Origin: Myxococcota bacterium | Lineage (GTDB): Bacteria > Myxococcota_A > UBA9042 > DTJE01 | DNA length: 37,292 bases | Reading direction: 5' to 3' | Assembly (NCBI GenBank): GCA_029975745.1 | Contig: JARKOL010000159.1 | Location: 1-37,292 of the forward strand | In this document: piece by piece, positions 152 through 7,108 of the stretch | How positions within the stretch are numbered: position 1 is the stretch's first letter | How the letters are laid out: each line of letters starts with the position of its first letter | Notes under the pieces: generated by a model | The model's database searches: none | The model's input: the letters and a program-made list of their open reading frames with translations, nothing else | Told to the model about the DNA's origin: nothing | Translations under genes and position numbers: made by a program

Positions 152-784
152 CTAGTAGATTCCCAGGTCCATCTGCGCGTCTTCGGTCGCCATCGTCCGA
201 GGGTCCCACGGGGGGTCCCAGACCAGTTCCACGGTGGCCTCGCGAAGGCCGCGGGCCAGCAGGGCGCCCTGGCGGACCATCTCCATCAACTGGGGCGCGA
301 ATGGACACATCGGCGAGGTCAAGGTCATTCGGATGTTCGCGGTACGGCCGTTGGGCGCCAGATCGACGCCGTAGATCATGCCCAGGTCGGTGATCGGCAA
401 CCCCAGCTCGGGCTCGATCACCTGGGCCAGTCCGTCCCAGATAGCGGCCTCGGTGGCGGGTCCCGACGGACGCGCGGCCAGCTCGGCCAGCGCCACATTC
501 GCCGCCTCGGTGGCCATCGAGTCCGGATCCCAGGCGGGCTCCTTGGTGAACTCCAGGCGCCCGTCCATCAAGCCGGGGATCGTTTCCAGCGCCGCGCGTA
601 TCGGGCCCAGCAGGCGGCGCGCCAGGGGCTCCTGGGCCACGCGAACCACGGCGGTCAGCCCGTGATCGACGACATCGACCGACAGCACCAGGCCCAGGTC
701 GATGATGGAGCAGCCGGTCTCGGGCTCGATGACGGTGCGCAGGGCATCCAGAACCTGCGCGCGTGTCACGGGATCGGGCGTCAT
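152..784 (-). CDS. sufT: SufT-like iron-sulfur assembly factor with two DUF59 (MIP18) domains
   Basis: A 210-residue protein built of two tandem DUF59/MIP18-type domains, roughly residues 5-95 and 110-205. Each has the family's PE..(G/C)..I.DLG motif (DLGLV near 29, DLGMIYGV near 133). Members of this family help mature Fe-S proteins and often end suf operons. Only the second copy keeps the conserved cysteine, in TSPMCP (C160). The matching part of the first copy (RVAQEP) has none, so the first half may be structural or regulatory. The ATG at 784 overlaps the TGA of sufSU (ATGA), which points to translational coupling and fixes the start. The family call is firm; the exact role (target delivery versus general assembly) is inferred from position. 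Confidence 0.88.
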   Translation of the reverse strand: MTPDPVTRAQVLDALRTVIEPETGCSIIDLGLVLSVDVVDHGLTAVVRVAQEPLARRLLGPIRAALETIPGLMDGRLEFTKEPAWDPDSMATEAANVALAELAARPSGPATEAAIWDGLAQVIEPELGLPITDLGMIYGVDLAPNGRTANIRMTLTSPMCPFAPQLMEMVRQGALLARGLREATVELVWDPPWDPRTMATEDAQMDLGIY

Positions 785-2559
785 GGGTGACCTCCTTGCG
801 TTTCGCCGTGCGCCAGGCTTTCCTCCAGCGTCGTCCAGGGCAGCAGCGCGCACTTGACCCGGACCGGAAGGTCCCGAACCCCCTGGAGCACCTCGACGTC
901 GCCCAGGTCCAGCCCCGCCGGCAGCGGTTCCCCTCGCAGCATTGCCTTGGTCCCCGCCAGCAGCGCGCGCGCCTCGGGCAGCGTCCGGCCCTTCAGGCGC
1001 ACGGCCAGCATCGACCCGGATGCCACCGAGATCGAGCACCCGTGCCCCAGAACCTGGATGCCGGCGATCCGTTCGCCCTCCAGCCGCAGCCGCAGCGTGA
1101 CCTCGTCGCCGCACAGCGGGTTCTTGCCGGACCACTCGACCTGCGCGCCATCGACCGGTTCGCGCCCCGCCGGGTGCAGGTAGTGGTCCATCACGACCTC
1201 GCGCATCAGTCCGTCGTCCCCGAGATCCTCCCCCAAGCCCGTCCCCGCACCCGTACCCGAGCCCGTCCCCGTACCCGTACCCGTCCCCGTACCCGTACCC
1301 GTCCCCACCCCCGCCCCCACCCCCGCCCCGACCCGCGGCGCGTACTTCCGTACCACGCCCTCCAGCGCATCGACCAGCCGGTCGATCTCGGCCTCGGTGG
1401 TATGGACGGAGAACGACGCCCGCGTGGTCGCGGCAAGTCCGAAGCGCTTCATCAGCGGCTGGCAGCAGTGGTGGCCTGCCCGAACCGCGATGCCGCGCGC
1501 GTCCAGTTCCTGGGCGATGTCGTGCGGGTGGGCCGCATCCAACGTGAACGACACCAGGCTGCCGGCCCAGTCCGGCCCGGGGCCGGGTCCCAGGATCCGA
1601 AGCCCCGCCAACCGGGACAGCCGGGCGTGGGCGTACGTGCCGACGGCCCGGTCGCGCTCCGCCACGTTCGCCATCCCCAGCGCCGCCAGCCAGTCGATCG
1701 CGGCGCCGAATGCGACGGCGCCTCCGATGTCCGGCGTGCCGGCCTCGTAGCGCGCGGGGGGATCGGCGTAGGTCGAGGCATCGAGTTCGACGTCGCGAAT
1801 CATCTCGCCCCCACCCAGGAAGGGGTCCATTTCGTCGTAGCGGGACGTCCGGACGACCAGCGCCCCCATGCCGGTCGGGCCCAGCATCTTGTGGGCCGAC
1901 ACGACATAGAAGTCCGGGTCCAGCACGGCAAGGTCGATCGGCAGGTGGGGCGCGGCCTGGGCGCCGTCGATCAGCACCGCGGCCCCGACGGCACGGGCGG
2001 ACGCGACGATGCGCGCAACCGGGTTGATCGTGCCCAGAACGTTCGACACGTGGGTCACCGCGACCAGTTTCACGCGAGGCGACAGCAGTGCCTCGAACGC
2101 GGCCAGATCCAGCCGCCCGTCGTCGGTGATCGGAATCTCGCGAATCACGGCCCCGGTGCGACGGGCCAGCAGGTGCCACGGCACCAGGTTCGCGTGGTGC
2201 TCCATGCGCGTGACCAGGATCTGGTCGCCCGCGCGAACGTTGCGGTCACCCCACCCATGGGCGACCAGGTTGACGCCCTCGGTCGCGTTGCGGACGAACA
2301 CGACCGCGGATGGCGATGGCGCCCCCAGGAAGGACGCGACCTTGCCCCGGGCATCCTCGTAGGCACGGGTGGCCTCCTCGGACAGCCGGTACACGCCCCG
2401 GTGGATGTTGGCGTTCGATTCCTCGTAGTACCGGGACAGGGCCGCGATTACCGCCCGCGGCTTCTGGGTCGTCGCGGCGCTGTCCAGATAGGCCAGCGCA
2501 TGCCCGTTCATCTCGCGGGCCAGGATCGGAAACTCGCGGCGAATCGCCTGGATGTCCAA
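781..2559 (-). CDS. sufS: SufS-SufU fusion: cysteine desulfurase joined to its sulfur-acceptor protein
   Basis: A single 592-residue reading frame. Residues 1-408 are a SufS-type PLP cysteine desulfurase: SAHK with K224 as PLP lysine, and RAGHHC with catalytic Cys365 followed by an extra Cys366. Residues 410-445 are a Gly-Thr/Gly-Val/Gly-Ala repeat linker. Residues 450-592 are SufU, with the three zinc/sulfur cysteines C483 (NPLCGD), C508 (GHGCSIS) and C570 (RVKCALLPW). SufU normally takes persulfide sulfur from SufS by zinc-ligand exchange; here donor and acceptor are tethered. The TTG at 2559 is chosen because GGAGG sits 7 nt upstream and the protein then begins MDIQAIRREFP, as usual for SufS. 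The nearest upstream gene is the Rieske ferredoxin. The fusion is read directly from the sequence; tighter sulfur transfer is inference. Confidence 0.95.
   Translation of the reverse strand: MDIQAIRREFPILAREMNGHALAYLDSAATTQKPRAVIAALSRYYEESNANIHRGVYRLSEEATRAYEDARGKVASFLGAPSPSAVVFVRNATEGVNLVAHGWGDRNVRAGDQILVTRMEHHANLVPWHLLARRTGAVIREIPITDDGRLDLAAFEALLSPRVKLVAVTHVSNVLGTINPVARIVASARAVGAAVLIDGAQAAPHLPIDLAVLDPDFYVVSAHKMLGPTGMGALVVRTSRYDEMDPFLGGGEMIRDVELDASTYADPPARYEAGTPDIGGAVAFGAAIDWLAALGMANVAERDRAVGTYAHARLSRLAGLRILGPGPGPDWAGSLVSFTLDAAHPHDIAQELDARGIAVRAGHHCCQPLMKRFGLAATTRASFSVHTTEAEIDRLVDALEGVVRKYAPRVGAGVGAGVGTGTGTGTGTGTGTGSGTGAGTGLGEDLGDDGLMREVVMDHYLHPAGREPVDGAQVEWSGKNPLCGDEVTLRLRLEGERIAGIQVLGHGCSISVASGSMLAVRLKGRTLPEARALLAGTKAMLRGEPLPAGLDLGDVEVLQGVRDLPVRVKCALLPWTTLEESLAHGETQGGHP
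1237..1332. repeat. in-frame hexanucleotide tandem repeat coding the SufS-SufU linker
   Basis: About 96 bp of degenerate units of the type ACCCGT/CCCCGT on the plus strand. They encode alternating Gly-Thr, Gly-Val and Gly-Ala dipeptides (residues 410-441 of the fusion) on the minus strand. A 6-bp period keeps the frame when units are gained or lost, so linker length could vary between strains without breaking the fusion. Confidence 0.85.
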
Positions 2560-2686: not shown

Positions 2687-3001
2687 TCAGTCCTCCCGCA
2701 CCTGCACGCGGTCGCCCTCGACACGTACGGCCCACGTCCGCAACGGCGCCACGGCGGGCATCCCCGTCGCACGCCCCGATTCCAGGTCGAACCGCCCGCC
2801 ATGGTGCGCGCACTCCCACGCCCCATCCCCCGCCAGGCATCCCGACGCCAGGTCCAGATCCTCGTGCGTGCAAAGCGCATCCAGCGCGAACACGCGTTCG
2901 CCCACGCGCACCAGCATGACCGGTTCGCCTTCCACGAAGACCGTAACCGCCGCCCCGTCCCCCAGGTCGTCCACGGCCGCCACGTCCCGCCAATCGCCCA
3001 T
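2687..3001 (-). CDS. Rieske-type [2Fe-2S] ferredoxin of the suf operon
   Basis: A 104-residue one-domain Rieske protein. The cluster ligands are visible as C44-T-H46 and C64-A-H-H67. The pattern matches small soluble Rieske ferredoxins (NirD/dioxygenase-ferredoxin type), and there is no membrane segment. Rieske ferredoxins at this place next to sufD are seen in other suf operons, where an electron-supply role in cluster assembly is suspected but not proven. Two starts are possible. The ATG at 3016 overlaps the sufD stop (TGATG) but has no clear ribosome site. The ATG at 3001 has GGAGG 5 nt upstream and was chosen. Confidence 0.88.
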   Translation of the reverse strand: MGDWRDVAAVDDLGDGAAVTVFVEGEPVMLVRVGERVFALDALCTHEDLDLASGCLAGDGAWECAHHGGRFDLESGRATGMPAVAPLRTWAVRVEGDRVQVRED

Positions 3002-3015
3002 CGCGCCCTCCCGCA

Positions 3016-4209
3016 TCAGGCCGCCGCCAACGCCGTCCGCAGCCGGTCCCGGACCCGGTCCGCCATGGCCGCCACCGGCAGTCCGGACAGCACCGGCTCG
3101 ACGAAGCCCTCGACCAGCATCGCGTAGGCATCGGAACGCGTCAGCCCCCGGGACCGCAGGAAGAACACCGCCTCCTCGTCCACGGGCGCGACCGCCGCGC
3201 CGTGCGTGCAGCGGACGTCATGGTTCAGGATCTCCAGCTCCGGGATGGTCTCGGCCACCGCGTGCTTCGACAGCAGCAACGAGCGCGCCTCCTCGAACGC
3301 CTGGCTGCGCGCGGCCCCCGGGGCGATGCGCAGCAGCCCCGTGAAGATGGACCGGCTGCGATCCGCGGCGACCGCGCGCCAGGTCACCCGGCTTTCCGAG
3401 TCCCCGACCGCGTGATCCTCGACCGCCCGGAAGTCGGCACGGGCCCGACCCGCGGTGAATGCCATGCCCAGCCCTTCGACCCGGCCTCCCGGACCCCGAA
3501 TCACGGGGGCCGCCTCGACCTTCACCAGCCCCTCGGGCATCAGGATGTGGACGTGCTGGAGCGACGCATCCCGATCCACCTGGTAGGCCGCGCGGGTGAA
3601 CGCGACGCCCCCGGGACCGCCCGATTCCAGACGGGCGTGGGTCGCCGTCGCGCCCGGCCCCAGCACGACCTCGGTCACCGCCGCGCCGAATCCGGCGGGC
3701 ACGTCCAGTTCCTCGATCACGGTCGCCTTCGCCTGGGCTCCGACCAGAACCAGGGTGCGAAGCGCCGAAAGCCTCCCGCCGTCCCCGGTCCGAAAGCGCA
3801 GCACGATCGGCGCCTCCACCCGCGCCCCGTCCGGGACGACCACGACCGCCCCCGCCGAGAACATCGCGAGGTTCGCGGCCAGCAGCGCATCGTCCATACC
3901 GGACACTTCCCCCAGGCTCTCGCCGATGCGAGCCGCCAGGTCCGATGCCAGCGCCTGGCCGAACGGCAGGACCCGCACGCCGGCAGCCACCGCCTCGTCG
4001 GGCACGTCGAAGGACGCGTCCACCGCGACCACGGGCGCCTCCAGAAGTTCGCGCGTACACGCGCCTCCCGGCAACAGGGCGGCCGCCTCGGTGAACCGGA
4101 ATCGATGCGTAGCCCGGTCGGGCAACGGCAGGTCCAACGCCCGCACGGCGGCATCGGCCCGCAGATCGGCCAGGAAGGCCGGCTCGTTCTCGAATCGCTG
4201 CAAGGTCAT
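3016..4209 (-). CDS. sufD: SufD, scaffold subunit of the SufBCD complex
   Basis: A 397-residue protein with the SufB/SufD beta-helix core. Its C-terminal half shows the family motifs: a hydrophilic helix region, LLLSKHA, then ILNHDVRCTHGAAVAPVD near residues 325-345, and FFLRSRGL. SufD pairs with SufB and docks the SufC ATPase to form the cytoplasmic scaffold where clusters are built. The His in DVRCTHG corresponds to the conserved histidine region of SufD. The ATG at 4209 has a GGAG-type site 6-7 nt upstream. sufB ends 46 nt upstream and the Rieske gene follows at once. Confidence 0.93.
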   Translation of the reverse strand: MTLQRFENEPAFLADLRADAAVRALDLPLPDRATHRFRFTEAAALLPGGACTRELLEAPVVAVDASFDVPDEAVAAGVRVLPFGQALASDLAARIGESLGEVSGMDDALLAANLAMFSAGAVVVVPDGARVEAPIVLRFRTGDGGRLSALRTLVLVGAQAKATVIEELDVPAGFGAAVTEVVLGPGATATHARLESGGPGGVAFTRAAYQVDRDASLQHVHILMPEGLVKVEAAPVIRGPGGRVEGLGMAFTAGRARADFRAVEDHAVGDSESRVTWRAVAADRSRSIFTGLLRIAPGAARSQAFEEARSLLLSKHAVAETIPELEILNHDVRCTHGAAVAPVDEEAVFFLRSRGLTRSDAYAMLVEGFVEPVLSGLPVAAMADRVRDRLRTALAAA

Positions 4210-4255: not shown

Positions 4256-5665
4256 CTAGCCCACCGACCCGGTCATCTCGAGCTGGATCAGGCGGTTCAA
4301 TTCCACCGCGTATTCCATCGGCAACTCCTTGACGAAGGGCTCGATGAACCCGTTGACGATCGTCAGGGTCGCCTCGTCCTCGGTCAGCCCGCGACTGCGC
4401 AGGTAGAACATCTGGTCGTCGCCGACCCGCGACACCGTTGCCTCGTGACCGATCCGCGCGCCGTTCTCGGCGATCTCCATCGTCGGGTACGTGTCCGACC
4501 GCGAGCGCTCGTCCATCAGCAGCGCATCGCACTTCACCGACACCTTCGCGCCGGTCGCATTCGGGTACACCTTGACCAGCCCGCGGTAGGACGCCCGCCC
4601 GCCATCCTTGCTGATCGACTTGCTGGTGATCGTCGATGTCGTGTTCGGCGCCGCGTGAATCACCTTGGCGCCCGCGTCCTGGTGCATGCCCTCGCCGGCG
4701 AACGCAATCGACAGCACCTCGCCGTGCGCCCGCTCGCCGACCAGGTAGATGGCCGGATATTTCATCGTCAGGCGCGACCCCAGGTTGCCGTCAACCCACT
4801 CGACCTGGGCCCCCGCATGGGCCTGGGCCCGCTTGGTCACCAGGTTCAAGACGTTCTTCGACCAGTTCTGGATCGTGGTGTAGCGGACCTTCGAGCCGGG
4901 CAGCGCGATCACCTCGACCACCGCCGCGTGCAGGCTGTCCGTCGCGTACGTCGGCGCCGTGCATCCCTCGATGTAGTGAACGCTGGCCCCCTCGTCCACG
5001 ATGATCAGCGTCCGCTCGAACTGGCCCATGTCCTTCAGGTTGATGCGAAAGTAGGCCTGGAGCGGGATCTTGACATGCACGCCCGGCGGCACGTACAGGA
5101 ACGAGCCACCCGACCACACCGACGAGTTCAGCGACGCGAACTTGTTGTCATTGGGAGGAACGACCGTGCCGAAGTACTTGCGAACCAGTTCCGGGTGATC
5201 GCGCAGCGCCGAGTCCATGTCCGTGAAGATCACGCCCTGCTTCTCGATCTCGGCCTGGATCGAGTGGTAGACGACCTCCGACTCGTACTGGGCGCTGACG
5301 CCAGCCAGGAACTTGCGCTCGGCCTCGGGCACGCCCAGGCGCTCGAACGTGTCCTTGATGCCCTGGGGAACCTCGTCCCAGGTGCGCCCCTGGCGGTCGG
5401 CCGCACGGACGAAGTAGATGATGTTCTCGAAATCGATCGCGTCCAGGACGGCACTGTTTCCCCAGCGCGGCATCGGGCGATCGCGGAACATCCGCAGGGC
5501 CTTCAGCCGGAACGCCAGCATCCACTCGGGTTCCCCCTTGAGCCGGCTGATATCGCGGACAACCGCTTCGGACAGGCCGCGGCGCGTCTTGTACACCGAC
5601 CGATCCGGGTCCGAGAAGCCGTACTGGTAGTCGCCGACCAGTTCCGGCGAAGTCTGCGCTTCCAT
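4256..5665 (-). CDS. sufB: SufB, core scaffold of Fe-S cluster assembly
   Basis: A 469-residue protein of normal SufB length and strong family identity. Recognisable blocks are [27 protein letters not shown] with a conserved cysteine, [10 protein letters not shown], and the C-terminal YLRSRGL followed by [13 protein letters not shown]. SufB is the subunit on which the nascent cluster forms from sulfide delivered by SufS/SufU. The start at ATG 5665 is set by AAAGGAG 7 nt upstream; the open frame extends 22 codons further without a ribosome site. It follows sufC by 20 nt. Confidence 0.97.
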
Positions 5666-5685
5666 GGCAACACTCCTTTCCGGGG

Positions 5686-6477
5686 TCACGCGGATACGGC
5701 CTGGGACGCCACCGCGTCGGCCTCGACCCACTCGTAGCCCCGGGATTCCAGTTGGGTGGCCAGTTCGGGCCCGCCCGACATCGCGACGCGACCGTCCAGG
5801 AACACGTGGACATGGTCGGGTCGCACGTACTCGAGGATTCGCTGGTAGTGCGTCACCAGCACCACCGACACGCCCTGCGCGATGGCGCGGTTGATGCCCG
5901 CGGCAACCGTGCGCAGCGCGTCGATGTCCAGGCCCGAGTCGGTCTCGTCCAGCAGCGCCAGCTTCGGCTGCAGCAGCAGCATCTGGAGGATCTCCAGGCG
6001 CTTCTTCTCACCGCCCGAAAACCCGTCGTTGACGTGGCGCGTCGCGAAGGAGTCGGGAATGCCCAGGTCCGCGAAGGCCGCCGACAGCTGCTTGCGGAAC
6101 TCGCGGGCCGGGACCTCGCGCCCCATCGCCCGAAGCGCCGACCGCAGGAACTGCGCGACACCGACACCCGGAATCGCGACCGGGTACTGGAACGCCAGGA
6201 AGATGCCCGCCCGCGCCCGCTCGGTCACGTCCATCCGCAGGAGGTCGCGCCCCTGGTAGCGGATCTCGCCGCCATCCACGACGTAGGCCGGATGCCCCAT
6301 GACGACGTTGGACAGCGTGCTCTTGCCGGACCCGTTGCGCCCCATGATCGCGTGGACCTCGCCCGGCCGCACGACCAGATCGACCCCGTTCAGAATCGGC
6401 TTGCCAGAGATCGATGCGCGCAGCCCCAGGACTTCAAGAATCGGCGCCGCGACACCCGTGTTGGTTTCGTGATTCAT
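5686..6477 (-). CDS. sufC: SufC, ATPase subunit of the SufBCD complex
   Basis: A 263-residue ABC-type ATPase with Walker [10 protein letters not shown] (residues 46-54), signature FSGGEKKR, Walker [13 protein letters not shown] and switch histidine in VTHYQR. The ETDSGLD form and the absence of any membrane partner are typical of SufC, which powers conformational change in SufB-SufD. Its ATG at 6477 overlaps the TGA of the Rrf2 regulator (ATGA), so the regulator and first structural gene are coupled. GGGAG lies 9 nt upstream of the ATG. Confidence 0.97.
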
Positions 6478-6980
6478 TCGAAAATACTCCCGCTTTCGTT
6501 CGAACTCGCACCGGCGCCCTCGCTGCCTGCCGCGTGGGCCACAGCCGCGGGCCGCCAGTTCCGATCGCCCTCCATCCGGACAAGATCCTTCAGGGTCACA
6601 TTGGACAGCAGATCCGCCACCACCTGGCGCAGCGCCCCGAAGACGCGCCGCAGTCCGCAGTCGGGCGCACGCTCGCACGCCGACAGGGCCGGCGCCACGC
6701 AGCGCCCCGTCCGAAGGGCCTCGCCCGAGAACGCCGCAAAGGCGTCGTGGAGGGTAATCGTCCCGGGTTCCCTGGCCAGCCGGATGCCGCCGTGAACCCC
6801 CCGGGTCGTCTCGACCAGACCCGCCTGCCGCGCCAGCCCCACCAGTTTCGCGACGTACTGGGGCGACATCCCCTCGGCGGCCGCCACTTCGGGAATCGTC
6901 GCCGACGTGCCGCGGTCCCAGGCCTGCGCCAGCCGCATCAGGCACCGGACGCCGAACTCTTCGGTGGCGCTGACCTTCAA
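6474..6980 (-). CDS. Rrf2-family iron-sulfur regulator of the suf operon
   Basis: A 168-residue Rrf2/IscR-family winged-helix repressor. The N-terminal wHTH (MKVSATEEFGVRCL, then SPQYVAKLVGLARQAGL and TTRGVHGGIRLAR) is followed by three cysteines, C94, C102 and C108 (C-x7-C-x5-C), of the type that bind an Fe-S cluster in IscR. It probably senses cluster supply and represses its own operon. The chosen start is TTG 6980, which has GAGG 5 nt upstream and gives the canonical Rrf2 N-terminus. The frame is open to ATG 7058, but that would lie upstream of the promoter. The last 30 residues (Ser/Ala/Gly-rich) are poorly conserved in type. Confidence 0.9.
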   Translation of the reverse strand: MKVSATEEFGVRCLMRLAQAWDRGTSATIPEVAAAEGMSPQYVAKLVGLARQAGLVETTRGVHGGIRLAREPGTITLHDAFAAFSGEALRTGRCVAPALSACERAPDCGLRRVFGALRQVVADLLSNVTLKDLVRMEGDRNWRPAAVAHAAGSEGAGASSNESGSIFE

Positions 6981-7007
6981 GGGCACCTCGCAAGCGTCGC
7001 AACCAGG

Positions 7008-7040
7008 ACTAATATGGTCAAAGTTTACTGATATGTCAAG
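7008..7040 (-). promoter_or_regulatory. suf operon promoter with overlapping direct-repeat operator
   Basis: On the minus strand, TTGACA (7039-7034) is followed after 17 nt by CATATT (7016-7011), a good sigma-70-type pair that ends about 30 nt before the TTG start. The same stretch read on the plus strand holds two near-identical copies, ACTAATATGGTCAA (7008-7021) and ACTGATATGTCAAG (7027-7040). They are 19 nt apart, one covering each promoter element. This is the obvious site for autorepression by the Rrf2 protein. The promoter is clear; the operator assignment is inferred. Confidence 0.65.
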
Positions 7041-7108
7041 ATTCACCGAGACCCGCACCGTCGAGATTGCAAATCACCTGAATAGATGGAGGGTTTGACC
7101 CTGATGCA

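Follow-up and report, generated by a model that had tools for sequence, protein, structure and literature searches.

The window (the whole 37,292-nucleotide stretch of DNA analysed here) contains a suf operon with the gene order rrf2-sufC-sufB-sufD-Rieske-sufSU-sufT, all on the minus strand. At its head lies an Rrf2-family (IscR-like) regulator gene (6474–7058), at which a promoter-like site was found on the same strand (7011–7039). It is followed by sufC (5686–6540; the frame as scanned, with a likely ATG start inside it) and sufB (4256–5731; the open frame starts upstream of the likely start), both identified by profile matches, and by sufD (3016–4209), which matched TIGR01981 at 207 bits, slightly below the cut-off of 222. 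Profile matches also identified the two neighbours of sufSU: a Rieske-type [2Fe-2S] ferredoxin as the next gene upstream (2687–3016) and a SufT-like protein built of two DUF59 (FeS_assembly_P) domains in tandem as the next gene downstream (152–781). A Rieske-type ferredoxin within the suf operon recurs at further loci of this gene order, among them ones from Chloroflexi and Myxococcota, and the SufT-like gene at the same place in two relatives (G006 and G007) is apparently single-domain.

Frame analysis and profile matches define sufSU (784–2559, minus strand) as a single open frame of 592 codons encoding a fused cysteine desulfurase SufS, a linker and a zinc sulfurtransferase SufU; it begins with a TTG start at 2559, preceded 7 nt upstream by GGAGG, and ends with a stop codon at 781–783. 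The arrangement of SufS, a (Gly-x) stretch and SufU in one frame had been proposed in an earlier sequence-only reading and was confirmed here. Pfam assigns Aminotran_5 to residues 24–395 (E 1e-136) and NifU_N to residues 453–535 (E 5e-15), and both parts of the same chain pass the curated NCBIfam cut-offs (TIGR01979, 534.5 bits against 475.1, for SufS; TIGR01994, 129.1 bits against 92.5, for SufU). The protein scored 537.6 bits against NF041166, the family 2A encapsulin cargo desulfurase, below the cut-off of 800, with only profile positions 225–621 aligned; membership of that family also asks for an N-terminal cargo region.

By profiles and alignment, the SufS domain comprises residues 1–405 (1345–2559) and includes the PLP lysine K224, the catalytic C365 and the substrate-site residues H121 and R380. 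The SufU domain comprises residues 450–586 (802–1212), in which the three cysteines C483, C508 and C570 and the CGD aspartate D485 provide the zinc and acceptor residues, accompanied by R567. The numbering of K224, C365 and C366 and the presence of the three SufU cysteines and the CGD aspartate had thus been read correctly from the DNA. Between the domains, repeat arrays, codons and the structural model delimit a linker of residues about 410–450 (1210–1332) with a (Gly-x)n stretch, GAGVGAGVGTGTGTGTGTGTGTGSGTGAGTGLG, encoded by an array of ACGGGN-type hexamers, so that this element of the initial reading is also real. Both domains align end to end to solved structures. The predicted structure consists of two confident domains separated by a disordered segment (residues 410–450, pLDDT about 30), and its pTM of 0.73 suggests that the relative placement of SufS and SufU is not fixed by the prediction. 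A fold search with the whole-protein model returned only SufS chains, and the assignment of the SufU fold therefore rests on sequence. No further SufU above the cut-off was found in the source genome; with a completeness of 87% and 408 contigs, the assembly may have missed a stand-alone SufU.

In Bacillus subtilis and Mycobacterium tuberculosis, SufU docks on the SufS dimer and its zinc trades the acceptor cysteine for a SufS histidine, after which the persulfide passes to the freed SufU cysteine; in M. tuberculosis the complex has the composition (SufS)2(SufU)2 (PMC10216065). All catalytic, zinc and zinc-swap residues of these systems (PDB 5XT5 for B. subtilis; 8ODQ and 9DDD for M. tuberculosis) are shared by the sufSU product. 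The SufS domain superimposes on 5xt5_A over 402 residues (1.9 Å, Z 51), and the SufU part aligns by sequence over its whole length with SufU of both organisms. What sets sufSU apart is that the two proteins form one chain and that a methionine occupies the position of a conserved SufU tyrosine. The zinc-swap histidine, H346 here and 342 in B. subtilis, is a histidine in 10/10 fused proteins and in 97/97 separate pairs, and is present in just 7 of the 23 loci without a neighbouring SufU. Since the catalytic, zinc and swap residues are all present, we infer the same chemistry within the tethered pair, and the sufSU product is predicted to carry out zinc-dependent persulfide transfer. Cys366, next to the catalytic cysteine, had been singled out as an oddity; it proved to be common in SufS, as 69 of the 97 SufS proteins encoded beside a separate SufU read HHCC at this site, and we no longer treat it as a special feature. 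In the fusion of G013 (L222), the conserved motif RAGHHC reads RAGDHC, with aspartate in place of its first histidine; the M. tuberculosis counterpart of this histidine is listed as an interface residue.

Other single-chain SufS–SufU proteins were looked for and found. This SufS is encoded in eight genomes of the family (source genome included), and in each of them SufU continues in the same open frame, with SufS parts in the family fusions 59–69% identical to the window protein. One-frame fusion also occurs in G013, from a second family of the same order, and in G050, from another family of the class, a frame cut by the contig end spans SufS from residue 262 into SufU. Across the class, SufU was above the cut-off in 16/52 genomes, 10 of which read as fused and six as separate. 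Among the matches listed for the 284 genomes of the phylum, full-length stop-free one-frame matches were confined to the family, although weaker fusions such as that of G013 appear there as a SufS match only and rare cases may be missed. Outside these groups, scanning named genomes gave 80 loci, of which the planctomycete MAG locus L038 was the sole fusion, and adjacent separate sufS and sufU genes are the state in nearly all other lineages fetched.

Separate sufS and sufU genes in close relatives, named beforehand as the finding that would speak against the fusion, were not seen. Every family genome tested has either both sufB and the fusion or neither of them, and the four members without sufB (G001, G002, G004 and G008) have no full-length SufS of this type; in G004 a contig end carries a partial match of 44%. 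The low-complexity repeat at the junction in a draft MAG might raise the suspicion that an assembly or base-calling error, through a lost stop or a frameshift, had joined two genes. We regard such an artefact as extremely improbable: the same one-frame fusion, with unrelated linkers, is found in seven other family genomes and in G013, and these eight further fusions of the order lead us to reject an erroneously lost stop. The fusion is not an assembly error, because relatives carry it in one open frame.

Fused relatives keep the operon order with three exceptions, the Rieske gene not being detected in G007 and G013 and the SufT-like gene not being detected in the examined stretch of G005. Loci L061 and L115 have the same gene order, but with sufS and sufU separate and adjacent, and L048–L051 have nearly the same order, also with separate genes and with no sufT detected. 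These loci provide the precursor state, and loss of the sufS stop in an operon with adjacent sufS and sufU is the simplest route to the fusion. In a SufS tree, the order's nine fusions group together (SH-aLRT 98). Over its ten fused rows two changes were needed, and just one of them is required by well-supported branches. L038 sits on a long branch whose position is uncertain; neither of the two trees decides whether it is a second origin, and G050 is not among the rows placed.

The linker differs widely among the fused proteins. By one fixed measure it has 41 residues in the window protein, 20, 20, 21, 38, 31, 16 and 16 in the other family members, five in G013 and 10 in L038, making that of the window protein the longest of the ten compared. 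Linkers from different genera show no sequence relationship, and only the source genome has the Gly-Thr repeat. The idea of a tether of variable length thus holds between relatives, with a range of 5 to 41 residues, but not as a property of the Gly-Thr sequence. The existence of linkers of just 5–10 residues suggests that the SufS C-terminus and the SufU N-terminus lie near each other in the complex.

The repeat itself belongs to a class that extends well beyond sufSU. ACGGGN hexamer arrays were found at 1215–1334 of the window and at about a dozen other sites of the source genome (contigs C1, C2, C39, C142, C146, C150, C189, C231, C252, C274, C277 and C323; L118–L147), while a reversed-pattern control gave no arrays in this genome. 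Several of the arrays, read by eye, lie outside genes, for example past the stop of one gene and ahead of the next. Of the relatives tested, G006 has many such arrays and G004 and G015 have fewer; none occur in the remaining ten. At three of the sites (L120, L127 and L140), the arrays are flanked by imperfect copies of one short sequence (about 29–47 nt, 93–96% identical), which gives the impression of a small dispersed element next to them.

The sequence-only reading had proposed that the 6-bp repeat serves as a tuning device, slippage altering tether length in frame and thereby adjusting sulfur transfer between cells. In favour are the array within the gene, with some 16 hexamers, and the length of the linker, yet we consider such tuning very unlikely. 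No other fused relative has the repeat in its linker, not even G006 despite its even more numerous ACGGGN arrays elsewhere; a non-repeat linker of 38 residues (G007) and the very short ones of G013 and L038 exist; and the dispersed arrays, several of them non-genic, vary at unit positions 1, 2 and 6, as does the array in sufSU. Because the same positional variation recurs elsewhere in the genome, both the frame-preserving unit and the wobble pattern come from the repeat class, not from selection on the linker, and variation restricted to wobble positions is rejected as a sign of coding selection. Judged by these comparisons, the Gly-Thr linker is best regarded as the source genome's version of a poorly conserved spacer, with the repeat being incidental.

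A further difference from separate SufU proteins concerns docking. PMC10216065 counts Tyr9 of M. tuberculosis SufU among the strictly conserved interface residues that form hydrogen bonds, and this position is a tyrosine in 96/97 separate SufU proteins from many phyla. It is reported as conserved and is not one of the family-defining catalytic residues; the sufSU product lacks it, having Met452 instead, and all nine fusions of the order carry Met, Phe or Asp there. With a methionine in place of a near-invariant docking tyrosine, the transfer interface may be non-standard. One explanation, which would add to the fusion and not replace it, is that tethering took over part of the docking and made the N-terminal tyrosine contact dispensable, letting the residue drift. 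A naive Fisher test of fused against separate proteins gives 3e-11, but the nine fusions form one clade and amount to little more than one event. Moreover, the fusions L038 and G050 retain the tyrosine, which weakens the case for its loss as a direct result of fusion, and five of the nine have phenylalanine, which may be a conservative replacement. We therefore hold relaxed docking to be a tentative idea that is rather unlikely to be right; if true, the fusions of the order would be a natural experiment for telling interface contacts that serve recognition from those that serve the chemistry.

Taken with the relatives and the conserved residues, sufSU is very probably a bona fide fusion, a tethered SufS–SufU pair that uses the known zinc-ligand-swap transfer and in which the linker sequence hardly matters. 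We infer the dimer, the sulfur path and the effect of the tether as follows. Adjacent sufS and sufU genes in an ordinary sufC-B-D-Rieske-S-U-T operon would have lost the intervening stop to give sufSU, whose product would form the usual SufS dimer, now carrying two tethered SufU domains. Cysteine would be desulfurated at Lys224-PLP, leaving a persulfide on Cys365; SufU would dock, its zinc swapping Cys483 for His346 of SufS, and Cys483 would accept the sulfur for delivery towards the SufBCD scaffold. The flexible linker, here filled by a genome-wide hexanucleotide repeat class, would raise the local concentration of the acceptor. That the tether fixes the partners at 1:1 is true, as it is of every fusion; since the known complex already has the composition (SufS)2(SufU)2, however, the stoichiometry would be unchanged and only the dependence on diffusion would differ.

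The known SufS–SufU mechanism is unchanged by the fusion, which independently supports SufU as a dedicated partner of SufS acting at its active site. As a single chain with a 1:1 ratio it could also serve structural studies of persulfide hand-off, and the linkers found in nature, about 5 to 41 residues long, invite the question of how much tethering helps. A literature search, in which subscription papers were thinly covered, found no described SufS–SufU fusion, a faint indication that it might be new to description. A related case is CD-Rhd of Pseudorhodoferax sp., a natural desulfurase–rhodanese fusion that is bifunctional and dimeric (PMC8931425). Like sufSU, it joins a cysteine desulfurase to a persulfide acceptor, but the acceptor is a rhodanese and not SufU, and the protein was found via COG1104 and not within the SufS group.

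A desulfurase and a NifU-type acceptor also lie side by side elsewhere in the source genome, as adjacent but separate NifU-like and NifS/IscS-like genes on contig C42, where the NifU, judged by eye, looks like a long multi-domain form. A similar NifU-/NifS-like pair is present in G001, which is without SUF, and such a pair may explain how some family members live without that system.
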